The position numbers and the translations under genes were made by a program. 64,000 bases of DNA from Alligator mississippiensis (lineage: Eukaryota; Chordata; Crocodylia; Alligatoridae): positions 40,743,756 to 40,807,755 of the forward strand of contig NC_081832.1 of the NCBI RefSeq assembly GCF_030867095.1, written 5' to 3'. The notes beneath the pieces are model-generated. The model saw only the letters and a list, made by a program, of their open reading frames with translations, was not told where the DNA came from and did no database searches. Below, piece after piece: positions 12,601 through 60,198 of this stretch (the first letter of the stretch is position 1; every line of letters begins with the position of its first letter).

Positions 12601-15600
12601 CACCCCAGTCAGCTGTCACTGCCTGTTGGGCTATGAGTTCCAGAAAGTGGGCCAGCTGCGCTATAAATCCATGCTCAACCCTGATCAGTGGCTGCAGGGC
12701 TTCTTCATCCTGCAAAAAGCTCACCTGTTCATTTGCCCAGTGGAGGAAAAGGCAGCTGAGGACAGCATCAACCTCCGGAGGCTACAAGAGCTCAGTGAGT
12801 GTGGACCTTCCACTTCCCAAATGAGAAACTACAGCCCTGCCCCTTCTCTGCCCCTGTAGAAGGCTGCATCTTAGTGCTAGATCAGTGAGGCCCATGTTAT
12901 TATGGCTACATTTAAGTGATGGGTCAGTGAAGTCTGTTCTGTGTGGCTGAGCACCATTAACCATGAACCCTGCCTCATCTTGGAGCAGTGTTTCTCAACT
13001 TTTTCAGACTCAAAGGATCCTTATAAGACTTAAAGTACCTATCAGAAAATGCCAGCAATGAGCTTTCACTCATTTCTTGACTGCAGAAAAATAACAGAGC
13101 AAGTCTTCTGTTGCAAAGAGTTCAGAAAGACCACAAAGGGCAAAATTTTTTTAACACAGTGGATTCCTGATTGAAATATCTGGTTTATCTTGTGAATTGT
13201 GTGAGTGTTTGCACATCTTACAGTGCTAATATTGCACAGAACCCATTAGTACCCATAAAGGATCTTCTAATACCCTAGTGAGATAATATAATACCCAATG
13301 GCACCCCAGTTGAAAATTGCTGCCCTAGAGGAACTGGATTTCAGTGCTCAGTCAGCAAGGCCCAAGCTGCCCAGCTGAGTCTGCATATATGCTCAGGGAA
13401 GCTGAGCTGCCCTCTTTGGAGTTGACTGCAATTCCGTGCTAGATCAGTGAGTCCCATGCTATGTGGCTGTGCAGTGTTAACCACTAGCCCTGCCTCGCCC
13501 TAGAGGGACTGCATTTTAGTGCTGACTCTGTGAGGCCTGTACTATGTGGTTGAGTGGCATTAACCACTGGCTCTGTCTGCATCAGAACAAGCTGCACTTG
13601 ACCAGTCTGCACTTGGTCAGTGAGGCCCATGGTATAAGGCTGAGCACTGTCAGTGACTGGTCCTGTCCTGGCTGAAAGAGGCTGTGAATGCTGATGTGTT
13701 GCATGTAGTGCTGTGAAGATCCTTCTACCTGACTTGGGGGTTCACTGCACCCTAATGTGAGATCTCTCCCTGATCTCAAGGCGTCATCTGATGTATACTT
13801 TTGTTCCCATGCAGGTGTGGTCCCCCTTAGTGAAACTTCTGAGAAGAAAGAGATGCTGATCCTAGTGGAGATGGGGAGGTAAGGTCTGCTGGAAGGGCTC
13901 TCAAGCCACTGGCACAGTGCAAGGCCCTGCTGCTCTCTCACAGCCACGCCCAGGGCAAAGTGCCCACAAAGTATTCCTGGATCATCACTGGGAGGAGTGG
14001 GGCTGGAGCAGCTTGCAGAGCAGCTTGCTTCTCAGACTTCCTCAAGGAAAGTGCCAAGGAAACCTACTTGCTGGGAGGAGTGCCATTGAACCCTAGAGCC
14101 ACAGCCAGAGTTTGTTTGAAGGATTTTCACAGCATTACGTGCAACACACCAGCACTCACAGTCCCTTTCAGGTGGGACAGGGCCAGTCACTGATATAGAA
14201 GGTCTGCTCTTGGGCCAGGCAGGGGGGCAGAGCTCTACCCAGCCCAGCATGAACATCCCCTACAGTGGGTTCCCTTGCTACGGTAGTGCTACCCAGTATC
14301 CACCCTGATTTAACTCCCTTGCATATTGACCCAGCCTTAGGGCTTCCCCTACCTCCTGAAGGTTAAACCCCTGTAGACAGGTTCATATCCAGCAAGATAT
14401 GGCTCCAGCAGGACCCAAGGCTGGTAGTGATGGCCCTTCTGCTTCTCTAGACCTTCACAGAGGGGTGGGGAGTAGGGGGGGGTAAGTCCTGGGGGCAAGG
14501 ATGTTCATTCCTTGCTTTTTGCCTCTTTTGTTCTCAGGACCTTTTACCTGCAAGGGGTGTCACGAGTGGACTTTGCAGCATGGTGCATGGACATTCAGGC
14601 CTCAGCAGGGGGCTGGGGTAATGCCCTGCGAGACCAGCAGCTCAGCCGGAGCAACATCCCCATCATCGTGGACAGCTGCATTGCCTTCATCACGCAGTAT
14701 GGTGAGCACTGCCACTGACCCCATAGTGTCTCCTGTCATTCACAACCACACTCCACCCTCCAAAGAGGCAACATAGCAAAAGCCAGTAATTTGGGCGTGG
14801 AGCAGAAGGTGTGGAGCAGCAGGCACTGCATTTGGGAGGGCACACAGTGAAGCACCCATGCACACAATGACCCGGGTGACACACACACACACGACTTAGG
14901 AGGGCATGCTCAAGTCATATTAGCTCCTGACTGCTGATCCTGGCTCCCTTTGGGGACCCTGCCCTCCTACCCCCAGGGCTGCGTCATGAAGGAATTTACC
15001 GGAAGAATGGGGCCAAGTCCCGCATCAAGGTGCTGATGGAAGAGTTCCGGCGGGATGCCCGTAATGTGAAGTTGCGCATCAGTGACAACTTCATTGAGGA
15101 TGTGACTGATGTGCTGAAGAGATTTTTTCGGGAGCTTGAAGACCCAGTCTTTACCTCAGAACTGCACCCACAATGGAAGGAGGCTGCAGGTATCACCTTC
15201 TGTCTCACCCTGCCTTCATAAAGCCTATGGTTCTTTTTCACCCAGACCCTCTTTTGCAGCAGTGCGGCAGTATGCCTGGGCACCTGGGAAAAAGCAGATT
15301 CAGTGACTTCTGGTTGCTGCTGCATTCATAATTGCAAGCATGTGGCTACCAGCAGCAGCCACTTTTTTCACCCCCAATCCCCTGCCCACAAATCAGTGCC
15401 TGGGGTAGTTGCACCTATTGCCACTCCCTCTCTCTCCGCCCCACTTACACCACTGTTCTTTAGCCTTCCATTGAGGTCTTTATGATAGGGACAGGCTTGA
15501 GCTGACCCCCTCTGGGAATGTGGACTCTGAACCCAATTCTCTCCTGGTTTGTGTCATGTGCCAGCTGGTACCCCAGTGCTTAGGGCATGTAAATTGTCAC

Positions 15601-21600: not shown

Positions 21601-24600
21601 AAAGCTCAGGTGGGTGAGAACTGCCATGCCAAGCCCACAGAGAGCCTGGGCAGGGCTGGGGTTCAGCAATGCCAAGCACTAACATGTCTCGTGATGCCAT
21701 GCAGCATGATGATCTGCGCTCAGTGATCCTACGGCGGCGCTCCTCCTCTGACCTCTCCAAACAGAAGTTTGGCACCATGCCACTGGTCCCTTTGCGAGGA
21801 GACAGCACTGACACTACCATGCTCTCTGCCAACCAGACCCTGGTAAGATAGCACCAAGGCTTAGCAGGGCCCTGCAACCCTGTGTTCCATGCCCACTGGG
21901 CCATCCCAACCTCAAGAGCACTTCCTGTCCAACTGTAGGCAGACACAGGGGGAGAGCAAGTGAAACATGCCTGTGAGCAGCTGTGGCAGTGTGTGCAGCA
22001 GCACTGTGTCTGTGTGGGTGCTCTGTGCCTGTGTGCGAGCAGGCCATATATGTGCTTGCAGGAGTACCACTCTGCGTAAAGCGTTCGCAAATTGTGTATA
22101 GCAGTGTGGTGCACTTTGCCCACGTGTTGAGTTTTGTTTCCCCCAGAGCTCTTTGCAGCCCTGGCGCTGTTCTGTGTTGTTAGGTGCTTATTCTCTCCCC
22201 CATCTCCCTCTGTTTCCAGCGTCGCCTGCACAATCGAAGGACTTTGTCCATGTTCTTTGTAAGTATCTGCATGTCTGATGCATATTCATGCAGGGGTTTA
22301 CAGCCTTTAAGGATCATCTACAACAGCAGGGAGAACCTGGTGATTGGGGGTTTTGGAAATGGGGGCCTATTTGCAAAGCCCAGCCCTTATATTGTGACTT
22401 AGTCACAGTGATCATTTAAAGAGCAGTCTGGCCCACTAGTTGCGGGGTGGCCCCTCCAGTGCTGATCTGAGGGTGCTCAGTGCAACACAATTGGCCAAAG
22501 CCTGGGCAGAGTTTGGGGAAATTGCCCTGAGGAGTATCATTAGCTATTGTCTCATGGTCTTGCTCAAGGACTGAGGGACCATACTGGTGCCCTGTCTAAG
22601 CTGTAGACTGTGGCACCCTGAATTCCTGGCCTCTTGCTTGAGCAGGGGGTTCCTCTTTGCTTGCTGCTCTTGCTTGCTGTGTGGTGTTCTGCATGCTGAG
22701 GAATTACTGTCCCACCCCACCCTAGCAGTAGGCAAGGAGATACCATCCAGGGAACACAAGGCAGAAATCTGCTCCACTCTACACTATGAGGCAGCTGCTC
22801 CTAACATTTCTGACAGTCTCTACTGGGGCTGAGATGCCATGTACTCAGTCTGCATTGGTCAAAGGGGATATCTTTGGTGTGCACTATAGAAGGAAAATAA
22901 GCTGTCAGTGAGGAAAACTCTCTTGCCTCTCTATTTACTCATCTCACTAGAGCCAGATAACCCTATCAAGCTCCCTATGGCTACATCTAGTGAGCATGCC
23001 CAATGACTGGAACTGTTGAGTTGCCTCTGACCCTGTAAGTCCTGCTCTGTGTGGTTTCCACTCTGCCCTGAGTACATGCTCAGGTTTCCAGGGAAGTGCT
23101 GGGCAACTAAGGCCATGCAGCAGAGCTGGGCTGGGAGAGGCAGAGGCGGAAGCATGCCCTATTGCTTGACTTTGGTGCAAAATGCTGTCACAACACAGCC
23201 ACTGGGTGTGATGCAGCAGTTCTGCTGGGTGCCACTGCTACAAAAGGTAGGAACATGTCAAGCACTGGAATTGAACTGTGCCTACTTCTGTGGAATAGCC
23301 ACTAGACTGAGACTGAAACACTGTGCAACACCCAAACCACATGTGGCCCCAGGAGTGGGGAATTGCTATCCCTCACTGCCATATGTGCTGTGACCCAGAG
23401 TGGTTGGGCTGATGCACCCCTGCCTCTTCTGCTGTCAGGTTTCCTGACCCAGTGGAACAGCTCCAGCTTCAGTGTCTTCTCCTAGGGCCTATCTATACTG
23501 CAGCAGTTGTATATTGCAGCCACACTAGTGTTGAGTACACCTTACCCACCCATGCCTACAGGTGTAGCTGTTCTTGGATGCTCCCCTGTACCCACCCTCA
23601 AGCACTCTACAGAATGAGGTCTTGGAAATGGCTACAGAGGGAGGGCCCTGATCAGCCTTACCAGCATATGCCTTAGTCTGGAGCATCTCAATAAGGGCAG
23701 GGGTAGGCATGCTTGAGAATGACCAGGCCAGGATACACCACTACCAAGGTGTTAAAAAGCCCTTACAGCTGCATGAATAGATGCTTTTGCCATAGTCTGT
23801 TCCCACAGCTGGTGAGCTGAGACTGGGGCAGGATCTGGTGATTCAGAGAGAGCGAGAGAAGGAAGACCATTTGACCTAGTCCAGCCTGGCCTTACCCCAT
23901 GCTCCATCTAAGGCTAAGAGCCTTCTGGGGAGCAGCTGACTAGAGATTATGTTCTGAACAGCCCAGAACAGATCCATCACAGTTCAAGCCCTTGTCTGGG
24001 GAAGGTGCAGAGCTGGTGGCTGAAGAGACCAGGGAGTGATGCTGGGCTGAGAGAAGTCTCTTCCTGTCTGACTGTGATGTGGGGAAGAGAAGACTGTACC
24101 GATGGGGGGATTCCTGCCAATGCAAATCAGCCACAGGAATTGAGCAAGTCTGGGAAGCCCACTTAAGGCCAACATCTGCTGGGCTTAGGGCAACAACATG
24201 GCCTTATGCTCCCTTCCCTGGCAGAGAAAGGTACAGGAGAAGGCATCTCTCACAAAGGGCCTGCCTCCCACTGCTGCAGCTGCCTCCTGCTCATTTGGTT
24301 CCCCTGCTGTTGTGCAGGTGGCTAGGAAGTTTGGTCACCTAATGTCTGTACCTGCTTTCCACCTGCCAGGACCCATGGGGAGGGATCAGACCTGCACAGC
24401 ATTCCCCAAAGTTCCAGGCTCTCTGCTGCTAGGGCACAGACAAGACCTCCAGGCTCAAGGCAGATAGACTGGGGAAAGGAATGGCATCTAACCATGGAGG
24501 AAGAACTGTATCCCAGAAAATGTTCTCTGAGTCTGGGGTTCTATCACACATCTAGCCCCTAATCTCTCTCCCTTGCCAGCCCATGAAAATGCATCAGGAC

Positions 24601-25185
24601 TCACTGGATGAGCAGCAGGAGAAGGAAGCAGCAGATGCAGAGCCTGTCTATGAGGAGGTGGGCAACTTCCCTACACTGTCCCCGCTGGAGCTGGACAAAG
24701 GCCTCCTGGCTGCGCTGTCCCAGGTGCCTGCTGTGGACAGATCCGTGAAACCAACCCTGTTCTCAGAGCAGTCTCAGCACCCAGCACTTCGCTCCTCACT
24801 GCCTCCAAGCCCAGGCCAAAAGGTGTCCAGCATGCCCTTTACTAAGGCACTTTCCCTTGAAAGAGGCCTCAACCTGGAGTCTGAAAAGGCCCTGTACCAC
24901 ACCAGATCATCTGGGCTCAGACCTACCAAAACAGCTTCCCTTGAGAGAAATCTAGAGCCATCCCAAGTACTACCTGCCTTGGCACAGGAGCAGGAGGCAG
25001 AGCAGAAACAGCCTCTAGTGCTAGAGCCCTTGTTTGGCAAGGCACCCCCTCCAGAGGCCTCCAAGAAGATCAGCCATCTGCCTTCACCCATCAATGATAA
25101 GCTGATGCAGGAGCTGAGCAGCGTCATCCTCAGGAAGAATGAGGGCCAGGGCCCTGAGCTTGGGCCAGGCCAGCAGATCACGTGA
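3520..25185 (+). CDS. ARAP3: ARAP3, 3' part: ArfGAP with RhoGAP, ankyrin-repeat and PH domains 3 (27 exons, 5' end outside window)
   Basis: Dual GTPase-activating protein recruited to the plasma membrane by PI(3,4,5)P3, inactivating Arf6 and RhoA (family knowledge). Joining the 27 exons listed separately gives 3831 nt, exactly 1277 codons including the stop. Domains in the visible protein: end of PH1 (1-60), PH2 (75-175), ArfGAP (176-300) with a CX2CX16CX2C zinc finger, PH3 (385-490), PH4 (490-600), RhoGAP (600-785) with the arginine finger in GIYRKNG, RA (808-910), PH5 (915-1016), then a low-complexity tail with a YEEV tyrosine motif. Order and sequence match ARAP3 rather than ARAP1 or ARAP2, and the FCHSD1 neighbour agrees. 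The exons for SAM and the start of PH1 were not found in 1-3519, so the first intron seen is over 3.5 kb. No stop or frame break was seen. Confidence 0.95.
4391..4578 (+). CDS. ARAP3: ARAP3 visible exon 2 (PH1 end, PH2 start)
   Basis: 188 nt, acceptor CTTCCACAG, donor GTGAGTG, leaves in phase 0. Encodes the PH1 C-terminal helix (NEWCSTMQKKVAEQR), a basic linker, and the start of PH2 (GCLEFKGHKSKVFAVLS). Confidence 0.92.
4918..5040 (-). repeat. CR1 3' tail, minus strand
   Basis: Reads AATCATAGA...CCATCTAGTCCAACCCCCTGCC on the plus strand, the reverse complement of the CR1 3' terminus. It abuts the plus-strand copy that starts at 5041. Confidence 0.8.
5041..6167 (+). repeat. CR1 LINE, 5'-truncated, reverse transcriptase C-terminal half to 3' tail
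   Basis: Encodes the RT segment SGVPQGSVLGPILFNVFISD, the catalytic FADD box at 5260-5271, and the CR1 C-terminal block RLDIRKNFFTVRVAKVWNGL. The reading frame shifts once near 5520-5545. Ends with the CR1 3' UTR and a run of TATGAATC-type repeats. One of the better preserved copies here, and it lies in the ARAP3 intron between visible exons 2 and 3. Confidence 0.92.
6747..6853 (+). CDS. ARAP3: ARAP3 visible exon 3 (PH2)
   Basis: 107 nt, acceptor TGTTTGCAG, donor GTAACT, leaves in phase 2. Encodes the PH2 strands RIGICLIELRGATIREA and SFELITPFKIF. Confidence 0.92.
6897..7726. mobile_element. hAT-type non-autonomous DNA transposon, about 830 bp
   Basis: Left end CAGGAGTGGGCAATTATTT and right end ...TTTTGTCCATCCCTG are imperfect inverted repeats. 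They are flanked by TTCTAGAG (6889-6896) and CTCTAGAG (7727-7734), a 7/8 match to an 8-bp target duplication, the size made by hAT elements. The interior is GC-rich and has no transposase ORF. It contains a C-run near 7613-7623. Confidence 0.8.
7867..7886 (+). repeat. Homopolymer run of 20 C forming the polypyrimidine tract of ARAP3 visible exon 4
   Basis: TGTG, 20 consecutive Cs, then AG and the exon. The run takes the place of the usual mixed U/C tract. Its length in the source DNA may vary or be mis-assembled. Confidence 0.9.
7889..8088 (+). CDS. ARAP3: ARAP3 visible exon 4 (PH2 end, ArfGAP zinc finger)
   Basis: 200 nt, enters after a run of 20 Cs plus AG and leaves in phase 1 at a GC donor (GCAG/GCCAGT). 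Encodes the PH2 C-terminal helix (REWMEALQDAIAETL) and the Arf GAP zinc finger CADC, 16 residues, CKQC. The GC donor is chosen because GCA G + GT CAG CAC CGG restores the invariant AGQHR of the family; the nearby GT (CA/GTATAT) does not keep frame with any acceptor. Confidence 0.88.
8364..8449 (+). CDS. ARAP3: ARAP3 visible exon 5 (ArfGAP)
   Basis: 86 nt, acceptor CTCCCAACAG, donor GTACAAG, leaves in phase 0. Encodes QHRGLGSNISKVQSLKLDT and SNEIVQ. It holds the conserved arginine of ArfGAP domains (QHR). Confidence 0.92.
8780..8962 (+). CDS. ARAP3: ARAP3 visible exon 6 (ArfGAP end)
   Basis: 183 nt, acceptor TTCTTGTAG, donor GTGAGTG, phase 0 at both ends. Begins LFIVLGNERANQFW and continues through EFITCKYRDGRYR, the last helices of the ArfGAP fold and the start of the ankyrin-like segment. 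Confidence 0.92.
9357..9519 (+). CDS. ARAP3: ARAP3 visible exon 7 (post-ArfGAP linker; alternative donor at 9468)
   Basis: 163 nt if the donor after TTCAG (GTAACA) is used. An in-frame alternative donor after TCTCAAG at 9468 (GTGTTG) gives 112 nt and removes 17 residues. Both leave in phase 1. Encodes TLCAAVAGPNLLKTVLQFF and an acidic linker. The longer form has the better donor; the shorter form is nearer in length to the human linker as I recall it. Confidence 0.8.
9946..10089 (+). CDS. ARAP3: ARAP3 visible exon 8 (PH3 start)
   Basis: 144 nt, acceptor TCTTCACAG, donor GTAGGT, leaves in phase 1. Encodes SLDSVYNEITQPVMHSGYLY, where SGYLY opens PH3. Confidence 0.9.
10174..10327 (+). CDS. ARAP3: ARAP3 visible exon 9 (PH3)
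   Basis: 154 nt, acceptor CTCCTTGCAG, donor GTATGC, leaves in phase 2. Encodes EFCRVWCSLEKSLLFYETD and IEMADMVSVGVS. Confidence 0.9.
11250..11352 (+). CDS. ARAP3: ARAP3 visible exon 10 (PH3 end)
   Basis: 103 nt, acceptor CCCTTGCAG, donor GTAAGC, leaves in phase 0. Encodes FRFTLDLFLGSEKVQQLGAD and the PH C-terminal helix DTLQAWASAIGK. Confidence 0.92.
11400..12195 (+). repeat. CR1 LINE 3' fragment
   Basis: Begins in the conserved C-terminal ORF2 block (RLDIRKNFFTVRQS at about 11450-11490) and runs through the 3' non-coding part to GGTCCCTTCCAGCCCTACC and TATGATTCTGTGA. The middle (GGAAGGATTTTT..., GCTCCTGCTGGGACT) is shared with the copy at 1855-3190. Confidence 0.88.
12237..12545. repeat. 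Decayed tandem repeat, unit about 48-50 bp
   Basis: C/T-rich stretch before ARAP3 visible exon 11. A theme of the form CCC-x-GGGCC(C/G)TGG-x-CTCT-x-TG-x-TGGG-x-CCCATT recurs about six times with heavy divergence. Confidence 0.55.
12596..12794 (+). CDS. ARAP3: ARAP3 visible exon 11 (PH4)
   Basis: 199 nt, acceptor CTGTGCAG, donor GTGAGTG, leaves in phase 1. Encodes WFTPVSCHCLLGYEF, GFFILQKAHLFIC and INLRRLQEL. Confidence 0.92.
12860..13700. repeat. Intronic minisatellite, unit about 85 bp, split by a DNA transposon
   Basis: About six diverged copies of a unit that starts CTGCATTTTAGTGCTAGATC, continues CAGTGAGGCCCATG and ATGTGGCTGAGCA, and ends TTAACCACTAGCCCTGCC. Copies start near 12862, 12915, 13335, 13423, 13510 and 13595. 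The element at 12986-13322 interrupts the array. Confidence 0.7.
12986..13322. mobile_element. hAT-type MITE inside the minisatellite
   Basis: Ends CAGTGTTTCTCAAC and GTTGAAAATTGCTG are imperfect inverted repeats of the familiar CAGTGGTTCTCAAC type. Flanks TCTTGGAG and CCCTAGAG differ only by transitions (5/8 identical), as expected for an old 8-bp duplication. Its interior is clearly related to the copy at 35469-35738 (shared CTTCTGTT and CAGAAAGACCACAA). Confidence 0.78.
13815..13878 (+). CDS. ARAP3: ARAP3 visible exon 12 (PH4)
   Basis: 64 nt, acceptor CCCATGCAG, donor GTAAGG, leaves in phase 2. Encodes VVPLSETSEKKEMLILVEMG. Confidence 0.9.
14538..14701 (+). CDS. ARAP3: ARAP3 visible exon 13 (PH4 end, RhoGAP start)
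   Basis: 164 nt, acceptor TGTTCTCAG, donor GTGAGCA, leaves in phase 1. Encodes TFYLQGVSRVDFAAWCMDI and then NIPIIVDSCIAFITQYG, the opening helix of RhoGAP. Confidence 0.92.
14977..15189 (+). CDS. ARAP3: ARAP3 visible exon 14 (RhoGAP, arginine finger)
   Basis: 213 nt, acceptor ACCCCCAG, donor GTATCACC, leaves in phase 1. Contains GLRHEGIYRKNG, whose arginine is the catalytic finger of RhoGAP domains, then EEFRRDARNVKLR and LKRFFRELEDPV. Confidence 0.94.
15879..15984 (+). CDS. ARAP3: ARAP3 visible exon 15 (RhoGAP)
   Basis: 106 nt, acceptor CCCTCCAG, donor GTCAGT, leaves in phase 2. Encodes RLERYKELINHLPRLNRKTL and AALIGHLYR. Confidence 0.92.
16631..16778 (+). CDS. ARAP3: ARAP3 visible exon 16 (RhoGAP)
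   Basis: 148 nt, acceptor GGCTACCAG, donor GTAAGC, leaves in phase 0. Encodes NQMGTKNLSLLFAPSLFQTD, containing the RhoGAP signature NL-x-FAP, then MEDLIDNYVRIFN. Confidence 0.93.
16897..16965 (+). CDS. ARAP3: ARAP3 visible exon 17 (RhoGAP-RA linker)
   Basis: 69 nt, acceptor CCTGACAG, donor GTACTG, in phase 0 at both ends. Encodes IDEDQVSQMDLENSLITTW and KDVQ. Confidence 0.9.
17580..17654 (+). CDS. ARAP3: ARAP3 visible exon 18 (RA start)
   Basis: 75 nt, acceptor CTTTCACAG, donor GTGAGG, in phase 0 at both ends. Encodes LSQAGDLIIEVYLEQKLLD and CCVTLK, the first strands of the Rap-binding Ras-association domain. Confidence 0.92.
18008..18122 (+). CDS. ARAP3: ARAP3 visible exon 19 (RA)
   Basis: 115 nt, acceptor GTCCCCAG, donor GTGAGTG, leaves in phase 1. 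Encodes VSPSMTAEELTNQVLEMRS and DIWLTFEALENGEL. Confidence 0.93.
18140..18430. repeat. Decayed G-rich tandem repeat
   Basis: GGGGAAGGTGGTGCTG, GGGGAAGGTGGCACTGTGCC, GGAGAAGGCAGCGCTGC and similar motifs recur every 50-60 bp just after ARAP3 visible exon 19. Confidence 0.5.
18440..18548 (+). repeat. CR1 3' tail
   Basis: GGTTGGACTAGATGACCTCC, then TGAGGTACCATCCAGTCC, ending TATGATTCTATGAA. Only the last 100 bp of a CR1 remain. Confidence 0.88.
18856..18984 (+). CDS. ARAP3: ARAP3 visible exon 20 (RA end)
   Basis: 129 nt, acceptor CATCCTTAG, donor GTGAATC, leaves in phase 1. Encodes ERPLHPKEKVLEQALQWCKL and VRKVPIGEGGCLFT. Confidence 0.93.
19481..19614 (+). CDS. ARAP3: ARAP3 visible exon 21 (PH5 start)
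   Basis: 134 nt, acceptor ACTGCACAG, donor GTAAAG, leaves in phase 0. Encodes KRESPKCGLLKCREEHPKLL and FQERYFVIRDQKLLLLKEK. Confidence 0.92.
20192..20274 (+). CDS. ARAP3: ARAP3 visible exon 22 (PH5)
   Basis: 83 nt, acceptor GTTCTCCAG, donor GTAAGC, leaves in phase 2. Encodes SAKPEREWPLDSAKVYMGI and RKKLKPPS. Confidence 0.93.
20779..20814 (+). CDS. ARAP3: ARAP3 visible exon 23 (PH5 micro-exon)
   Basis: 36 nt, acceptor CACTCCAG, donor GTGAGT, enters and leaves in phase 2. Encodes WGFTLTLDKQQ. It is the shortest internal exon placed in ARAP3; both neighbours join it in frame. Confidence 0.9.
21546..21609 (+). CDS. ARAP3: ARAP3 visible exon 24 (PH5 end)
   Basis: 64 nt, acceptor TTTTGTAG, donor GTGGGT, leaves in phase 0. 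Encodes YLACTGQAELWDWITSILKA, the last PH strand and C-terminal helix. Confidence 0.92.
21705..21842 (+). CDS. ARAP3: ARAP3 visible exon 25 (tail)
   Basis: 138 nt, acceptor CCATGCAG, donor GTAAGA, in phase 0 at both ends. Encodes HDDLRSVILRRRSSSDLSKQ, a basic serine-rich stretch conserved in human ARAP3, then KFGTMPLVPLRGD. Confidence 0.93.
22220..22258 (+). CDS. ARAP3: ARAP3 visible exon 26 (tail)
   Basis: 39 nt, acceptor GTTTCCAG, donor GTAAGTA, in phase 0 at both ends. Encodes RRLHNRRTLSMFF, identical to my recollection of human ARAP3. Confidence 0.92.
24580..25185 (+). CDS. ARAP3: ARAP3 terminal coding exon (visible exon 27)
   Basis: 606 nt including TGA, acceptor CCTTGCCAG. Starts PMKMHQDSLDEQQEK and carries DAEPVYEEVGNFP, the tyrosine motif phosphorylated by Src-family kinases in human ARAP3. 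Then follows a Ser/Pro-rich stretch with two similar blocks (TKALSLERGLNLE and TKTASLERNLEPS). It ends near LMQELSSVILRKNEG, a conserved C-terminal helix. Confidence 0.93.
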   Translation, partial: PMKMHQDSLDEQQEKEAADAEPVYEEVGNFPTLSPLELDKGLLAALSQVPAVDRSVKPTLFSEQSQHPALRSSLPPSPGQKVSSMPFTKALSLERGLNLESEKALYHTRSSGLRPTKTASLERNLEPSQVLPALAQEQEAEQKQPLVLEPLFGKAPPPEASKKISHLPSPINDKLMQELSSVILRKNEGQGPELGPGQQIT

Positions 25186-29280: not shown

Positions 29281-30329
29281 CTAGGGCTGGCTCTGTTCGC
29301 TGGACCTCAGAGGCAGCACTAGGTTCTCACAGGCCCTGGCCAAAGAGGCCTTGTCTTGCTGTCTCCAGGGGCAACAAACCATGGACCCGAGTTGGGCCCG
29401 GAAATCCCGGGAGATATAAAAGTAGATGAAGGGGTCAAAGCAGTTGTTGAAGGCGCTGAGAGCCAGTGCTAAAACATAATGGATGTAGGCGTCATTGCGG
29501 GACGAGGATGTGCCCTGTAGGTAGTGGGAAAAGAGCAGCACATTGCTGGGGGTGAAGCACAGGGCAAAAACCAGTAGCACAAGGACCAGAACTCGCACCA
29601 CATGACCATAATGCCCCCTCGTGGCAAGCAGATGTGCCAGCACACAGCCATAGGAGAAGACAATAATCACAAAGGGGAGTACAAACCCCAGAACTACCAG
29701 CGTAGGAAAGTAGTAGGCCAGGTACTGGGTTTCTGTGGACTGCTCCAAGAAGTCATGGCAAGTGGTGATGTTCAGCTGCGGGACATGCTGTGAATGGTGG
29801 ATGAGCAGCAGTGGACTCATACCCAGCCCTATGGCCAGCCATACCCCGATACAGATGCCTACTGTGCCACATACTCGCTCAGAGCCTCTCCAGATGAATG
29901 GGTGCACCAGTGAGACATACCGATCCAAGCTGATGCAGGTGAGGAAAAGGATAGAGCTGTACATGTTTCCATAGAAGAGGGTGACAAGGGCCCGGCATGC
30001 ATATTCCCCGAAGAGCCAATTGTTGCCCAGCAGGTGGTATGAGATCTTGAAGGGCAGTAGGAGGACAAAGAGCAGGTCAGCACCTGCCAGGTTCAGCAGG
30101 AAAAGGGTGGAGGCACACTTCTTGGTCTTGGTGGCCAGGACCCAAAAGGCCATGGCATTGGCTGGCAGCCCAACTAGAAGTACCAGAGTGTAGAGCATGG
30201 GGAGGAGGCGCGTGGTCACTGTACCATTGAGATGGTCCTCTGGGGAGGCACAGCGGCATGTGAAATTCCTACCCGTTTCCTTGCAATTGGAGATACGGGT
30301 CAGGGCTCGGCCTTTTGATACTCTTTTCT
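29281..30329 (-). CDS. PAR-like receptor exon 2 (cleavage site, 7TM body, C-tail)
   Basis: The acceptor on the minus strand is TCCTATCATGTCCCCACAG. Translation open upstream of it is intronic and should not be taken as the N-terminus. It encodes EKRVSKGRALTRISNCKETG, then NFTCRCASPEDHLNGT (two N-glycosylation sequons, NFT and NGT), and seven membrane spans. The C-tail is short (about 40 residues) with CC in GSMVCCPW that could be palmitoylated. Confidence 0.93.
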
Positions 30330-33300
30330 CTGTGGGGACATGATAGGAAAGTGGGTTAGGGCACTCTGTGGATCTGCATTCCAGGAACATGACACACTGC
30401 ATGTGGACTGCCTGCATGCCTCCCTAGGCATGGGTCTGGTGGGCACACCAGCTACCTGCACTCTGCTAATCCCCAGCAGGGGTTGTGCACAAGTAGGAGG
30501 GCTTTTGGCCTTTCTGAGAGAGATTAAGCAAGAGGGAGATCTCTGAAAAATCCCCATTTTGCAGAGACATATCCAAGGTACAGAGAAAGCAAGAGGCTTT
30601 CTGGGGCTGTAGACAATGAGAAGGAAAAACAGGACCTGGGAGTCCTAAACCACAAGACTGTCCTGTCCATCCCTGTATGAAGCCACTAGATGGCAGTGGT
30701 CTAGCACATCCCTGTTGGAGCTGAAGGTTTGTGGATCCAGTCAAGGGTGCACCTAGGTTATGCTCTGCGTGGCTAATGAATATTGTAATTCCAGTGTAGC
30801 CCCTTTTGGCAACAGTGGGAGCTGCCCTAGCCCCCTGCCACTGCCTAAAATACACTAAAGCAGCTGAGCCTGGGCAGAAGGATGGGAAAGGGAGGCTTTG
30901 GAAATATCAGTTCCTCCTCCAGCTCACCAAGCAAGAGCAGCTTCTGATAGGGCAGCTCTATGTTCATCATTTTGAGTTGGGGGAAACAATGAATCTTCCT
31001 CCAGCTCAATATTTGGGGCACTTACAGGTAAGTGATGCCCTGGGGTGCACAAGCCCTGCTAGAGACCCCAACTCCCCAACTCCATTTTAATTATGAAGGC
31101 AAGCAGCCTGAATGCAAAGAATTGCCTGAGTCCCAGGACTGGATCAGAAGCTCTGGCCTCACGTGTGGGTGAGGTGGTCTTCCCAGACCAGACAAGTAAT
31201 ATTCAGAGCAGGGCTGTAGGGTGCTTCTGTGCAGTATGCATGCCGACAGCTGAGGGCTCAAAATTTCTGCACTGTGGATCAACCCAAAAAATGGATGGCA
31301 AGTGGAATTGGTAAGTTACCTTGCCCATCAGCCCATCCCACGCACAAGCAGCATCATGGTCTGTCAGTCACACAAAAGAGTTATGGAATGGATACAGAGG
31401 CATAGAGGTTAAAAAGGGGGTTGCCTGTCTTGTGGCACAGTTGTCTTGTCCTTCTCTGCATCTCACTGAGCAGTAGCTCCTATGCTGACAGAGGTTGTAC
31501 CTTTCTTCCTGCACTGTTTTTCAGTGAATACAAGTGGAAAAGGGGGTGGGGGATAGAAGAGAAAACCTCCAAAGAGTCACCTCAAGTTGAAAATGGTATT
31601 TTTTTCATTTTCAAAAAATCAAAAACAAAACACAAAACAAACAGAACATTTTGTCATTATCACTGGTAATTAAAAAGTTCTGTCAAAACAGACATTGTCC
31701 CTTGGAAAACTGGGATCAAATCCAATTTTTCTGTCCAGCACATTTTATATTAAACATCAGCATAGGAAGGACCCTGCTAGAAAGTATCCTTCAGAAACCA
31801 TTCTTGTCAGTTTTGTGTGCCTTCAGTGCAGTAAGTGCATCAGGTAGCCTGTATATTTATTCTAGGGAGGACCAGAAATGTAGACAGTGGACTCCTGAGT
31901 GGACTCCTGACTTAGAAATCTTCTGCTAAGAACCATAGCAAACTAGTTACTCTGAATGGCAATTGGTTTCACAGCAGGACTTGGCCCAAGTTCAACAGTA
32001 TAAATAGAAAAAAGAAGCACTGCAGGCCCCAAAGCAACAGACTGAACAGGAGGTGTGACAGTGAACAATGCTGACAGTAGAGTAATCCAGATAAGGGGAA
32101 GAAATTACCCCGCAGCAGTGAGTTCTGCACAGAGGAATCAAAGCTCTCATGCTGAATTCTGCAGCTTGAGATGCTGACAGCCATCCATGTTAGTGACTAA
32201 GCTGCAGAGACATATCTACAAAACTCAAGAGCTACACCTGTGGCCAAGCATACGCTTGGAAAGCAGAGAGAATGTGCAAGGTTCAAAAATATCTGGCAAG
32301 TTTTCAGTGTCAAGCAAATGAGCTGCTTACAGCACATGAAACAGCAACCCGAGCAAAGTTTCCTAGCTTCATAGTAGCTAGGGTCAGGAGGGACCTGAAC
32401 AGATCATCTAGCCTGACCCCCTGCCACAGGCAGGAATGAATGCTGGGTTCACAAGACCCCAGACAGGTGATCATCTAACCTCTTTTTAAATTTGCCCAAG
32501 GTAGGGGCAAGGACCACTTCCCTAGGAAGTTGGTTCCAGATTCTGGCCATCCTAACTGTAAAATATTGCCTCCTGATCTCTAACCTAAACCTATTCTCCA
32601 TCAGCTTATTACCATTGTTCCTCGTCACCTCAGGTGGTGCTGGGGAGAATAGGGCTCTTCCTATTTGCGGATGATCTCCCCTGATGAGTTTGTAGACAGC
32701 CACCAGGTCCCCCCTCAGCCTCCTCTTGCAGAGGCTGAACAGGTTCAGGTCCCTCAGTCTCTCCTCATAGTCTCCCCTCAGTCTGTCCTGCTGCCCTCTC
32801 ACCAAACACGTGGCCCTCCTCTGAACTCTCTCCAGGCTGGCCACATCCCTTTTAAAGTGTGGTGCCCAGTACTGGACGCGGTACTCCAACTGCGGCCTGA
32901 CCAACGTCGCATAGAGGGGGAGCATCACCTCTCTGGACTGGCTTGAGATGCATCTTTGGATGCATGACAAGGTATGGCTAGCCTTGCTGGCTGAGGTCTG
33001 GCATTAGCAGCTCATGTTCATCTTGGAGTCAATAATGACTCCAAGATCCCTTTCCACCTCTGTGCTTTCAAGAGGGGAACTCCCCAGCCTGTATGTATGC
33101 TGTGGATTCCTTCTCCCAAGGTGCAGCACCCTGCATTTGCCTATGTTGAACCCCATCCTATTCTCATCTGCCCACTTTTGTAGTCTGTCTAAATCTAGTT
33201 GCAGCCTCTCTCTCCCTTCAAGTGTGCCCACCTCACCCCCCATCTTAGTGTCATCAGCAAACTTAGACAGCGTGCTTTCCACCCCCTCGTCCACATCACT

Positions 33301-36300
33301 GATGAAGATGTTAAACAGTGTGGGCCCAAGGACCGAGCCCTGGGGTACCCCACTGCTCACATCTCGCCAGGTTGAGTACAACCCATCCACCACTACTCTC
33401 TGGGTGCGCCCCATCAGCCAGTTTTTTTACCCATCCAACTGTGTAGGCATCAATGCCACAGTCGCTTAATTTATTAACGAGAGTGGGGTGAGAGATGGTG
33501 TCAAAGGCCTTCTTAAAGTCTAGAAAGACTACATCCACGGTGACACCATCATCCAAGGATTTAGTTACCTGGTCATAAAAGGCAATCAGGTTGGTCAGGC
33601 AGGACCTGCCTTTGATGAACCCATGCTGGTTGCCCCTGAGCATGATCTCCCCTGCTGGCCCCCCACAGATGTGCTCCTTGATGATTTTCTCCAAGATCTT
33701 CCTGAGGACTGAGGTGAGGCTTATAGGCCTATAGTTACTTGGGTCCTCCTTCCTCCCTTTCTTAAAAATGGGGACTACATTAGCTAGTTTCCAATCCCCT
33801 GGCACCTGGCCAGATGACCACGAATGCTCATACAGCCGGGCCAAGGGCTCCGCGATGACCCCTGCCAGCTCCTTCAACACCCTCCAGTGGAGGGCATCTG
33901 GACCTGTGATTTAAAAATGTCTAGCCCTTCCAGAAGGTCCCTAACTACCTCTGCGCTAACCCAAGGCCTGAGCTATCCCCAAGATTGTCCCTACCTCTGG
34001 TAGGAGGGATGTCCCAGTCCCTGTTCAAGAAAACAGAGGCAAAGAAACTGTTAAAAATATCGGCTTTCTCATCTGGCGTAGCCACAAGGTTACCATTTGA
34101 GCCTTGCAGGGGCCCTACATTGCCTGGTGCCCTCTTCTTACTCCCAAAGTGAGAAAGGACTTCTCACAGACAAGAGAGCCGACTACTTGGTAGGAGCTAA
34201 CTATTACCTGAGCAAAGCTATAGCTAGCTCAGGATATGGGACCCTGATCAGTAGCACTGAGCCTGTCTGGAAAGGAAGGGGAATTGGGCACATGACTTTG
34301 TTCACATAGCCTGGGCAGTCTGGCAGAATGGCTGAGTCAGCAGCCAGACTAGCTACCAAGCTCAGAACAAAACTAGAGACCAAGAGCAGTGCTCCGTGGG
34401 AAGCTAAGCTAGCTGGGTGGAATGTCCCAGCAGAAGGCAAGCTCACGTAACGGGGAATCTTCTGGGCACATGCGGGGCTTGGTGCAGGAACATGCAGAGT
34501 TTAAAGTGCCAGGTTTTTTTTGTTTTCTTTTTGTTGTTGTTGTTTTTATGCCTGCAAGCACCCAGCAGCAAAAAAAAAAAAAAGCCAGCACCTATGGATC
34601 AATGCACTGTTCAGTTGAAGTATCAGAGTTGCTCCCTACAGACACAGATGGCACTAGGGGATGAGCCCTACCACAGACCTTGACTTTACATTCCTGCCCT
34701 GGGGAGGCTGACAGCTACATCAGAATAAGATCCATAGAGAGGCTGAGGAATTAATTATAGCAAAGAAAACAGCAATAACCTCCTTCCTCCTCCCCACTGC
34801 ACACGTAAGCCTAAGCCACATAGAAACCAGTCTGTGTGCAGAGCCAGGATGCCCCTGCAATTCTTTATATGCACAGGAGTGTCACAGGATTAGCAGGACA
34901 GTAGTGGTGGATACACATACAGACCCAGCAGGCAACAACAGGGACTAATATTAGAATCCAAGTCCTTGTCCCTGTTGCTGCTTAAAACATTCAGTTAGAC
35001 CAGGGCTGAGGCACTCAAGTTTACTTGATGTCTGGCAAAGGGCACTATGTGCCTGTTTAATGCATTAGAGCAAAGGGAATGTTATAAGAGAAGCATTAAG
35101 CTTGAATGTACAGAGCCAGCCAGAGGGCATTAAGGACTGCACTTATTAGCACTGTGCTCCATAAATATGTTGCTTGTTAAAGTTCTGCTGAAACAGCTCA
35201 TCTACCCTCCGTCCTCTACCAAAGTCCTTGATTTACATTTTATTGTGCTACAGCTCTCTAGTGGCCAAAGAGCTTCAGATACTGTAATGTCCATAAAGTA
35301 TTCATGCACAGAATTCAGCCGTTGACCTTCCATTCTACGATGCCCACAAAGCTGTCATAGCTATTATACTGGGTGCCCAACCTACCAGCCTACTTTATGT
35401 TTCAGAAGAATTCTGTGGCATTTTACCATCCAGCCCAGCTGCTGCCCTAAGCAGGAAAAACTTTACTGCAATTGTTCTTAGTCATTTTGGACTTGGGGCA
35501 CCCCTTGTTAGCCTCAAGACATCCCTCAGAAAATGCCAGATCTTAGTTTTTACTCTGTCTTTAACTATGTAAAAGTAATACAACAAATCTTCTGTTACAA
35601 AAAACTCAGAAAGACCACAATAGGTCAGAATATTTTAACACTACAGATTCCTATTTGAAGTCTCTGGGTTTAGCTTATGAATCATGTTTGTCACCTAACA
35701 TTGTGAGGTACTGATGGCACCCTGTTTAAGAATCACTGCTTTATTGAATTCAGGCAACAGAAGAGAGAAATTTGGGCAAAAAAGGGAATGGTTGAGTCCC
35801 AGAGCCCTAACTGGAGACAAGCAAGTACAAAGCACCACAAAAAAATGAAAACTTGCAGGCCAAAATTTTCAAACCTTAGGCCCACAGTTAGCTATATACT
35901 TCCATATATATAGGCAGATACTTGAACGGCCTCATTTTCAAAGTGCCAAACTCCTAAGAGCCCAACAGACTCCAAGTCAAATGCACTACCTTTGCAAATC
36001 AGGCCATTCATCTGGGTGCTTACATACATCATTAGTAGGATTGGCAGAATTCAATTTTATTTTTTTTTAATTTTGAAAGCTAAAATCGGTTAATTTTTTT
36101 AGCATTTATTTCAATTTTTATCAATTGAAATGTTAATGATTACACAAAATTAAGGGTGTTTTTTAATTTGGCATGTGCATACACACATGCAAGCATGTAC
36201 AGTGGCTGCTGCAGGATCTGGGGCCCATGACAGTAAGGCTGTGCCGAGAGTGGGGGCTGGAGGGGCAGGGCTGGTAGAGCCCTGGAGCCCAGTGCTACTG

Positions 36301-37707
36301 GTCCCTCATTCTGCCCAGGGCCCAGCCAGGCCACCATGGGAGTTTGGCCCCTGCCCAGGCTAGAACCTGGGCAAAGAGAGCAGCTGGCAGCACTGGGCTC
36401 CCCAGTGCTACTAGCCCTGCCCTTGCAACCCCCACCTCCCAGCACAGCCTTTCCTACTGGCATGGCCTCCAGCTCCTGCAGCAGCTGGGGGGCAAGGATG
36501 GGTGTATGTACGCATACACATGCTACCCTACCCAGGATTCCCTTACCTCTGTCCTGGGTTTTGTTATTGGGGGGGTTTTATGTCTCCTTTACGTAAATTT
36601 CAATGATGTCTGTGAGTGTCAGGTGAAACAAACATGTTTATCCATATCTATTGATAAAATCGAATCCTGCCAAGCCTAATCATTAGGAATCTAGAAACAG
36701 GCCCCTGTTTTAAAGCATGATCTTTTACTGGTCCTCAGCTGTGTTTCAGAAATAGTATGTATGTATGTACTGGAAATGGTACGAACTCCAACTCTTCTGC
36801 TCTCAGATTAGGCAGGGGAAGTTTAAAGCTACAAGAGATACTATTTTATTTTCGCAAAGACAGGGATATTTTAACAGTTTCTTTGCCTCTATTTTCTTGA
36901 ACAGGTGGAAGAGGGTGAGCCCACCCATAAACTCACATTAGACTCATAACTAGAATGTCTTCAAGAGATGCATGCTTCAAAAGGGTGAGTACCCTTCATG
37001 CTTAGCCCTATTGCTACAGAGCCAGGGTCAGTCCCAGCTCAAACAACACATACAGCTGAGTGCACCAACAGGATAAGCAGTAACAAGAGGGCAGACCCAG
37101 CACCTCCTGCCTGGAGCTGGTGTGCAGGGCAGATCATTTGGGCTCCTTAATAAATGTATAACCAAACATCAGGAACATTGGCTAGGGATTCAGTCCTGCC
37201 AGACTCATGCACCTACAAAGGATTTAGGGCCAATCTCTTTCTTGTGAGGCAGGGGTCCAGCTTAAAGAGAGAACTGGACCTTCTTGCCTTAAAAAGAATA
37301 CAGCAGCATGTTCAGTCTGCTTATGGGACTCATGGTGATGCAGCCTCTATGACATGCCACAGGCCAATGACTTCATCTACCACGCAGAACCTGGTATCTC
37401 CAGGGACAAGAAAGCATCCCTGGATCATATAGAACCTCAGGAGTCTAATTGCATGTCAGTCCCAGAGACACCAGTCATCCTTCCCAGTGTAGAGGTCCCA
37501 AAAGAGGGTATGATGGGTATGGAACCCTGGGAGTTGTAGCAGCTGGAAGCAAAGGGGCAAACTGCCAGAGATTCTTCACAGCATGAAGAAAAAGATCTTA
37601 GAGGACTTACCTGTGGGACATTGTTCAGCCCAGCAGAGGCAGGTGCAAGTAAGCAGTAGTGACATGCAGAGAGCTTTAGACCACTGTGAGGATTGCAGGT
37701 GCATCAT
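29281..37707 (-). CDS. Protease-activated receptor (PAR/F2RL family, PAR4-like), two exons
   Basis: Rhodopsin-class G-protein-coupled receptor activated by proteolytic unmasking of a tethered N-terminal ligand. Coding exons are 37707-37611 and 30329-29281 (97 + 1049 = 1146 nt, 381 residues plus stop). The family two-exon layout with a phase-1 junction after the signal peptide is present. Seven hydrophobic segments follow. Diagnostic residues: GLPANAMAFWV (TM1), NLAGADLLF (TM2), FYGNMYSSILFLTCISLDRY (TM3), ITTCHDFL in extracellular loop 2 (CHDVL in other PARs), FTPSNVLLFSHY (TM6) and DPFIYFY (TM7). Predicted cleavage site SKGR/ALTRIS. SLDRYVSLVHP and the RGHYGHVVRV segment before TM6 resemble PAR4, while FYGNMY and the cleavage residues resemble PAR2, so I assign no orthologue. 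No break seen. Signalling is expected through Gq or G12/13 by family. Confidence 0.9.
30330..32367. other. PAR intron, no gene seen
   Basis: No recognisable coding or RNA gene. An A/T-rich stretch at about 31590-31740 (runs of T and A around TTTTCATTTTCAAAAAATC) looks like an old repeat remnant that I cannot name. Confidence 0.55.
32368..34142 (-). repeat. CR1 LINE, longest and best preserved copy in the window
   Basis: 5'-truncated. Reading the minus strand from 34142: NGNLVATPDEKADIFNSFFA-like N-terminal linker, VLKELAGVIAEPLARLYEHS, KKGRKEDPSNYRPISLTSV, RGNQHGFIKGRSCLTNLIAF, SGVPQGSVLGPTLFNIFISD, FADDTK (FADD at 33261-33250), and RLEIRRQYFTVRMARIWNQL, then the 3' tail at 32368-32450. Long open stretches remain in three frames with only a few breaks, so it is young relative to the others. 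It lies in the PAR intron in the sense orientation. Confidence 0.93.
34143..35460. other. PAR intron, no gene seen
   Basis: Contains a T-rich run at 34511-34546 and an A-run at 34571-34583, otherwise unremarkable. Confidence 0.5.
35469..35738. mobile_element. hAT-type MITE, same family as 12986-13322
   Basis: Ends CAATTGTTCTTAG and TTAAGAATCACTG are imperfect inverted repeats. They are flanked by CTTTACTG (35461-35468) and CTTTATTG (35739-35746), 7/8 identical. The interior shares CTTCTGTTACAAAAA and CAGAAAGACCACAATAGG with the other copy. Confidence 0.82.
36036..36678. mobile_element. hAT-type fold-back transposon with perfect 8-bp target duplication
   Basis: Left end TAGGATTGGCAGAATTC and right end GAATCCTGCCAAGCCTA are 17-bp inverted repeats with two or three mismatches. 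Both sides carry ATCATTAG (36028-36035 and 36679-36686), a perfect 8-bp duplication. Outer arms are A/T-rich and the interior GC-rich, and long parts of the left half pair with the right half (for example GGGGCAGGGCTGGTAG near 36260 against CTACTAGCCCTGCCC near 36410). No transposase. Confidence 0.88.
36860..36910 (+). repeat. CR1 internal fragment (short)
   Basis: GATATTTTAACAGTTTCTTT and GCCTCTATTTTCTTGAACAG encode DIFNSFFASIFLN, the same CR1 segment found near 34060 in the minus-strand copy. Neither a 3' tail nor a longer match was seen. Confidence 0.6.
37611..37707 (-). CDS. PAR-like receptor exon 1 (signal peptide), predicted
   Basis: On the minus strand an open stretch starting ATGATG at 37707 encodes a typical signal peptide: polar start with one lysine (MMHLQSSQWSKA), hydrophobic core (LCMSLLLTCTCLCWA), then EQCPT. 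It ends in ACAG/GTAAGTCC, a near-perfect donor in phase 1, matching exon 2, with the junction codon GAG (Glu). Start choice among M37707, M37704 and M37665 is open; the longer forms give a more usual n-region. No upstream 5' UTR exon was identified. Confidence 0.72.

Positions 37708-40981: not shown

Positions 40982-60198
<19,217 letters not shown>

Follow-up and report, generated by a model that had tools for sequence, protein, structure and literature searches.

The 64,000-nucleotide window analysed here, from the genome of Alligator mississippiensis, contains a minus-strand gene for a protease-activated receptor (PAR) in the gap between ARAP3 and FCHSD1, both of which lie on the plus strand. 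The gene has two exons and encodes a product of 381 amino acids. Exon 1 (37611..37707, minus strand) carries the start codon, a signal peptide (called by eye) and the first residues, and ends at a GTAAGT donor; the ATG codons at 37704 and 37665 are alternative starts in the same frame. The intron (30330..37610, minus strand) is in phase 1, is about 7.3 kb long and harbours a reverse-transcriptase fragment; it leads to a CCCACAG acceptor and exon 2 (29281..30329, minus strand), which encodes the cleavage site, the seven-helix domain, the C-tail and the stop codon in a frame that is open throughout. Exon 1 was placed by a splice and reading-frame check and by tblastn on the window. Crocodylus and Dermochelys orthologues as queries recovered both exons, exon 1 at 88% (E 8e-13) and 71% (E 6e-11) identity, respectively, which rules out a chance reading frame. 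A tandem PAR cluster is ruled out as well, since seven tblastn queries found a single PAR within the window.

On the ARAP3 side, plus-strand frames encode the start of the ArfGAP domain (7821..8120, Pfam; further piece 8780-9136), in two frames other than that of the RhoGAP exon, and the RhoGAP exon itself (14931..15218; further piece 16563-16898). The best PDB match of the latter is 5jd0 (E 1.3e-25), and ARAP3 entries are its sole PDB matches at E < 1e-6. A long plus-strand frame at 24556..25182, with no match in Pfam, probably encodes the ARAP3 C-terminus. Beyond the receptor gene, two short plus-strand stretches resemble FCHSD1 and are presumably its start (MQPPPRKV, 40982..41005) and a further exon piece (14 residues, 42199..42240). 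A plus-strand frame at 58312..58671 encodes an FCHSD-type SH3 domain that we take to belong to FCHSD1; its best PDB matches are FCHSD2 and KIAA0769, presumably the same protein. The original prediction of an intact PAR between these two genes, on the opposite strand, is thus borne out by the exact coordinates, the open frame and the flanking ARAP3 and FCHSD1 frames.

The product is a class A seven-helix receptor (Pfam 7tm_1, 164 bits), and its closest solved relatives by sequence are PAR2, PAR4 and PAR1, followed by P2RY8. An AlphaFold model of exon 2 is helical (pLDDT 84.9), and its seven top PDB fold matches are all PAR1 or PAR2 structures, the first being 8xos (PAR1). The CHDFL, SLDRY and DPFIYFY motifs and the two-exon layout that had been read from the letters are all present; this layout, with a first exon coding for the signal peptide, is a hallmark of PARs. 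The CHD of extracellular loop 2 (within CHDFLE) comprises residues 223-225 (29752..29760, minus strand), and DPFIY of helix 7 residues 331-335 (29422..29436, minus strand). In PAR2, it is the CHD strand of this loop that docks the tethered ligand. Six PAR2 positions at which alanine mutants strongly lost activity are described in the accessible part of PMC12673148, and the window receptor keeps five of these six; the equivalent of one PAR2 residue, L230, occurs in 0/10 amphibian sequences.

We refer to the receptor as PAR5, a name that a literature search did not find in use for a protease-activated receptor. Its predicted protease cleavage site, SKGR (30307..30318, minus strand), would be cut after the arginine, and the predicted tethered ligand begins with the neo-N-terminus ALTRIS (30289..30306, minus strand). 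The site is conserved: GR stands 30-34 residues before the first transmembrane helix (TM1) anchor in 37/39 sauropsid sequences (K-G-R in 32/39) and is found in 10/12 amphibian sequences (K-G-R in 8/12), the usual GR being missing from both salamander sequences. With only three acidic residues in the 34 after the cleavage site, PAR5 has no acidic hirudin-like stretch. Although it shares its overall fold and the general tethered-ligand layout with F2R/PAR1, this absence and the long branch between the two set them apart. Because the cleavage site resembles that of PAR2 and no acidic stretch is present to dock thrombin, enzymes of the trypsin, tryptase or matriptase type are likelier activators than thrombin. 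A trypsin-like serine protease would cleave PAR5 after SKGR, the new ALTRIS terminus would fold back to reach the CHD strand in extracellular loop 2, and the activated receptor would then signal via heterotrimeric G proteins.

Orthologues were found in Crocodylus (94% identity), turtles, tuatara (482 bits), birds, caecilians, salamanders and frogs (about 300 bits). No mammal or squamate was present among the 116 named sequences of the best 120 database matches. The relatives are named PAR2-like, PAR3-like or PAR4-like. One of them, P0031, is a bird-like protein of 362 residues, including a leader, encoded on a contig of 1,380 bases, which suggests a spliced transcript.

Residues reminiscent of PAR4 and of PAR2 are mixed in the receptor, as had been noted originally: a PAR4-like cysteine after the tethered ligand (C48) stands beside the PAR2-like K-G-R site. 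Counted by stretch rather than by aligned column, a cysteine lies between the tethered ligand and TM1 in 37/39 sauropsid and 11/12 amphibian sequences, the bird residue being about five positions further along and therefore perhaps not the same cysteine. The stretch also contains a cysteine in 105/107 usable sequences of the ray-finned set and in gorilla PAR4; it has none in the 19 usable cartilaginous fish sequences or in 107 other usable sequences from a list dominated by PAR2. An alanine following CHD occurs in 114/118 ray-finned PAR4 sequences (118 of the 120 listed were used, P0039 and P0094 being left out), in 2/2 PAR4 sequences and in 6/20 cartilaginous sequences, but in none of the 96 clade sequences with the motif (0/84 sauropsid, 0/12 amphibian). 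The proline of CHD-A-L-P is found in two of these 96, and the window receptor reads CHDFLE.

Phylogenetic trees were built with 20 ray-finned and 21 clade sequences, chosen for spread from those found, together with PAR1, PAR2 and mammalian PAR4 (gorilla, human and one further near-identical sequence); PAR3 was absent. The chimeric P0039 was left out, as was P0121, which is named as Pongo PAR1 but is ruled out as such, being PAR2 by sequence (98% identity to human PAR2). In the 67-row tree, the 21 tetrapod sequences form one clade with support of 100/100 (99/100 without PAR1). The 20 ray-finned PAR4 sequences (97/91) fall apart from it, and so do the three primate-type PAR4 sequences. PAR5, ray-finned PAR4 and primate PAR4 group together at 92/92, which drops to 52/87 without PAR1. 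The separate clade that, together with the same gap location elsewhere, had been expected of an additional receptor is present in these trees of PAR1, PAR2 and PAR4 sequences.

We consider it probable that the receptor is a working PAR related to PAR4 and a distinct, older paralogue of mammalian PAR4 (F2RL3). The PAR5/PAR4 split would then be earlier than the divergence of amphibians and amniotes; crocodilians, turtles, birds, tuatara and amphibians would have retained PAR5, and mammals and apparently squamates would have lost it. The main competing explanation, to which we give a clearly smaller but still appreciable chance, is that the gene is simply F2RL3, a single tetrapod PAR4-type gene that occupies the ARAP3-FCHSD1 gap in non-mammals and that, in the mammalian line, was relocated to the 19p13 region and evolved rapidly. 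PAR5 lies between ARAP3 and FCHSD1 rather than at the location of human F2RL3, presumably 19p13. The post-ligand cysteine is PAR4-like, and the known distributions of PAR5 and PAR4 look complementary, as a single fast-diverging gene would also make them. A protein search with a sturgeon query listed many ray-finned proteins named PAR4 and no tetrapod PAR4; a sauropsid or amphibian PAR4 was likewise absent among the matches listed, and such lists cannot reliably exclude one. With one-to-one orthology, however, sauropsids and primate PAR4 would be expected to form one clade, and primate PAR4 falls outside the tetrapod clade. Forcing the two together, with primate-type PAR4 sequences on a long branch, was disfavoured in three tests, with p-AU of 0.053 (just above 0.05; dlnL 33.8), 0.012 without PAR1 (dlnL 22.9) and 0.035 on 4-state recoded data (p-SH 0.07). 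The long branch and odd composition of primate PAR4 could place it outside the clade as an artefact. CHD-A-L-P is common to primate and ray-finned PAR4 and not to the tetrapod clade, and gorilla PAR4 has P-A-P-R at the cleavage site where PAR5 has K-G-R.

The deeper branching order admits more than one arrangement. Grouping primate PAR4 with PAR5 or with ray-finned PAR4 was equally acceptable (p-AU 0.444 each; 0.348 and 0.339, respectively, without PAR1), and the former was also accepted on 4-state recoded data (p-AU 0.402); a grouping of primate PAR4 with PAR2 was not rejected either (p-AU 0.141). The trees thus give equal standing to the tetrapod clade and to ray-finned PAR4 as the nearer relative of primate PAR4. 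Of the two possibilities raised at the outset, a moved or retained PAR4 and an additional PAR lost from mammals, the latter is favoured by the clade support, the outside position of primate PAR4 and the missing CHD alanine, and is tempered by the equal acceptability of PAR5 with primate PAR4 and by the one nesting test of the three at 0.053.

That the gene is an orthologue of PAR2 or PAR3, as several database names of its relatives would have it, is very improbable. The human PAR2 cleavage site is also SKGR, yet identity to PAR2 sequences is 34-38%, the usable PAR2 sequences have no post-ligand cysteine, and the nine PAR2 sequences form a clade of their own (100/100) with the window receptor outside. 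PAR2 orthology in particular is ruled out by distinct PAR2 genes in the same or related species (Crocodylus porosus, Rhea pennata and Rhinatrema); in Crocodylus porosus and Rhea pennata the longest contig listed for PAR2 differs from that for PAR5. Least probable of all is a decaying duplicate without function, given the open frame, the clean splice sites, the 94% identity to Crocodylus, the conserved cleavage site and pocket, and P0031 with its leader and apparently spliced transcript.

The idea of an additional PAR is not new, although the name F2RL4 occurs in a single paper of the literature searched. An Ensembl-based survey from 2019 named a PAR group near F2RL3, with an amphibian and five birds, F2RL4, and held it separate from F2RL3, according to its accessible text (PMC6504862). 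PAR5 is probably this group: like it, the clade described here has frogs, many birds and no named mammal, whereas the single sentence on F2RL4 in that text gives no location, cleavage site, or crocodilian, turtle or tuatara member. Zebrafish PAR4 was not found according to the accessible part of PMC3408399, and zebrafish PARs are assigned to PAR1 and PAR2 only in that of PMC2793433. A literature search on sauropsid F2RL3 found nothing, and the accessible parts of PMC3408399, PMC2793433, PMC4596860, PMC4290089 and PMC12954441 do not address sauropsid PAR4. The tetrapod clade includes many birds and Xenopus tropicalis P0113, which may be the Xenopus sequence of the 2019 survey.

The human set of four PARs is probably incomplete for land vertebrates, since relatives of PAR5 are found in turtles, tuatara, birds and amphibians and no named mammal is among the matches listed. 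PARs, which are drug targets, convert the activity of clotting and tissue proteases into cellular signals. A more far-reaching reading, which we regard as rather doubtful, is that PAR5 is an ancient fifth subtype, a trypsin-type sensor of PAR4 ancestry in non-mammalian land vertebrates, perhaps on nucleated thrombocytes or epithelia, whose loss left mammals with PAR4 as the sole, thrombin-tuned member; mammalian PAR biology would then be a reduced form of the tetrapod one. As the proposed fifth subtype is filed under three PAR names in birds, crocodilians, turtles and amphibians, studies of PAR1-4 function in these animals may read the wrong receptor.

On the minus strand of the window, a protease-activated receptor (PAR) gene, here termed PAR5, is encoded by two exons delimited by reading frame and splice sites. 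Exon 1 (37707..37611) contains the start and signal peptide, exon 2 (30329..29281) the remainder of the receptor, and they are separated by a phase 1 intron of about 7.3 kb. Both exons were recovered with the Crocodylus and Dermochelys orthologues as queries, and the gene model therefore has support beyond splice consensus. Pfam assigns the product to the class A receptors; its nearest solved proteins by sequence are PAR2, PAR4 and PAR1, and for exon 2 as modelled by AlphaFold (mean pLDDT 84.9), the first seven PDB matches are PAR1 or PAR2 structures.

The flanking genes lie on the plus strand. ARAP3 is represented by two ArfGAP pieces identified by domain match (7821-8120 and 8780-9136) and by a RhoGAP exon (14931-15218) whose PDB matches below E 1e-6 are only ARAP3; its final long frame appears to end near 25.2 kb. 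On the other side, FCHSD1 presumably starts near 40982, judging by resemblance to FCHSD1 sequence, and an SH3 frame (58312-58671) has KIAA0769 and FCHSD2 as top PDB matches. PAR5 and FCHSD1 are thus arranged head to head, about 3.3 kb apart on opposite strands. The original prediction of an intact two-exon PAR in the ARAP3-FCHSD1 gap, on the strand opposite both neighbours, is borne out by the coding sequence, the recovery of the exons and these flanking matches. The human gap is not known to contain a receptor; human PAR genes reside at 5q13 (F2R, F2RL1, F2RL2) and 19p13 (F2RL3). At human 11q13, P2RY2 and P2RY6 lie beside FCHSD2, near ARAP1; with this arrangement in view, the related receptor next to FCHSD1 and ARAP3 in the window could reflect either chance or an ancient cluster.

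Relatives of PAR5 are widespread. Among the best 120 of 921 matches in a first protein search, with scoring confined to the 7,998 candidates with the most words in common, identity to PAR5 was 94% in Crocodylus porosus, 60-72% in turtles, 62% in tuatara, 51-66% in many birds and 42-50% in caecilians, salamanders and frogs, followed by sharks, rays, Callorhinchus and one sturgeon. Mammals and squamates account for none of the 116 named rows among these 120, an absence from the top matches only. Database names are inconsistent (PAR2-, PAR3- or PAR4-like). Both PAR5 and PAR2 are present in Crocodylus porosus, Rhea pennata and Rhinatrema; in Crocodylus porosus, the longest contig is 37,982,970 bases for PAR5 versus 75,875,076 for PAR2. 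Four PAR-type proteins of the shark Heptranchias perlo (P0078, P0093, P0094, P0102) share the same length of longest contig (38,965,612), which suggests a tandem array. A protein labelled PAR1 of Pongo abelii (P0121) matches human PAR2 at 98% identity across 95% of the query, and is a mislabel or fused model.

We consider it likely that PAR5 is a separate, older paralogue of PAR4. In a 67-row tree, 21 tetrapod sequences form a single clade (support 100/100), ray-finned PAR4 (20 rows) forms its own (97/91), and three PAR4 rows (gorilla, human and one further) sit on a long branch; jointly, these groups receive 92/92. Without PAR1, the corresponding values are 99/100 and 97/91, with only 52/87 for the three groups together. 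Of the two choices posed originally, PAR4 or an extra PAR lost from mammals, the separate clade favours an extra PAR, and plain F2RL3 is less favoured.

A displaced F2RL3 is a rather improbable alternative. Joining primate PAR4 to PAR5 or to ray-finned PAR4 is equally acceptable (p-AU 0.444 each; 0.348 and 0.339, respectively, without PAR1), and joining it to PAR2 is 21.9 log units worse (p-AU 0.141, not rejected). If PAR5 were the sauropsid orthologue of mammalian F2RL3, however, mammals and sauropsids would be expected together, apart from amphibians, and forcing this grouping is costly: 33.8 log units (p-AU 0.053), 22.9 without PAR1 (p-AU 0.012), and p-AU 0.035 with p-SH 0.07 on 4-state recoded data. 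These tests are weakened because the primate rows sit on a long branch and are unusual in composition. With the recoded data, ray-finned plus primate PAR4 ranked first among five trees, exceeding the free search by 0.01 log units. Without recoding and with PAR1 included, amphibian PAR5 with primate PAR4 gave p-AU 0.006.

Among discrete characters, a cysteine after the tethered ligand is a PAR4-like feature of the PAR5 clade: counted anywhere between ligand and TM1, by stretch rather than aligned column, it occurs in 37/39 sauropsid, 11/12 amphibian and 105/107 usable ray-finned rows (118 given), in 0/19 usable cartilaginous rows (20 given), and in 1/108 usable rows of a PAR2-dominated list (120 given), namely gorilla PAR4. 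Bird PAR5 carries it about five residues farther from the cleavage site. In ECL2, alanine follows CHD in 114/118 ray-finned PAR4, 2/2 PAR4 and 6/20 cartilaginous rows, but in 0/84 sauropsid (86 given, fragments included) and 0/12 amphibian rows; PAR2 has valine (118/118). Two residues beyond, proline is found in 114/118 ray-finned PAR4, 117/118 PAR2 and 13/20 cartilaginous rows, and in 2/96 of the PAR5 clade. These residues set the clade apart from PAR4 as common to fish and primates.

The PAR5 clade is probably the group near F2RL3, comprising amphibian and five bird sequences, that is named F2RL4 in the available text of PMC6504862, the sole occurrence of that name in the literature searched; in the same literature, no paper mentioned PAR5 alongside both protease-activated receptor and thrombin. 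Our analysis adds crocodilians, turtles, tuatara, caecilians and salamanders to this group, together with a location in one crocodilian and a cleavage site. A protein named PAR4 occurs in many ray-finned fish, although the accessible part of PMC3408399 reports PAR4 as not found in zebrafish; this protein often carries R↓[ST]F with C-N or C-K after it (38/106 usable rows by strict pattern).

The PAR5 N-terminus in the window reads SKGR, then ALTRIS. GR lies 30 to 34 residues ahead of the TM1 anchor in 37/39 sauropsid rows (K-G-R in 32/37); of the other two, one has an incomplete N-terminus and one, missed by the pattern, has SKGR visible by eye. Amphibians have GR at 27 to 33 in 10/12 rows, eight with K-G-R. 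Neither salamander row (P0088, P0099) has GR in the expected range, one having it slightly farther out; both read SGQK↓LGSY at this stretch, and activation may differ in these members. At the second position of the ligand, 10/11 sauropsid and 7/10 amphibian tree rows have L or M and 17/20 ray-finned PAR4 rows have F, while the nine PAR2 rows have L, F or M. Since only three acidic residues occur in the 34 positions past the window's cleavage site, a hirudin-like thrombin-docking stretch is unlikely. Judged from its residues, the predicted site would be cut by a trypsin-like enzyme, and the cut receptor would signal through G proteins in the usual PAR manner. According to the available text of PMC12673148, PAR2, whose ligand pairs with ECL2, loses much of its activity when D228, L230, P231, Y323, H310 or Y311 is changed to alanine. 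The window retains D, L, Y, H and Y, with P replaced by E; amphibian rows keep these positions less well (Y323 10/10, H310 7/10, D228 7/10, Y311 5/10, P231 1/10, L230 0/10).

The C-terminus, LPLRSSEQSQP (29284-29316, minus strand), is strikingly alike across crocodilians, turtles and most birds (LPLRSSEQSQ or near variants) and different in amphibians; it is possibly a regulatory tail motif. Finally, Pfam reverse transcriptase (RVT_1) fragments lie within the PAR5 intron (33311-33910, minus strand, E 6e-15) and in the ARAP3 region (4987-5541, plus strand, E 1e-13); from the habit of such genomes, we take both to be probably CR1-like LINEs.
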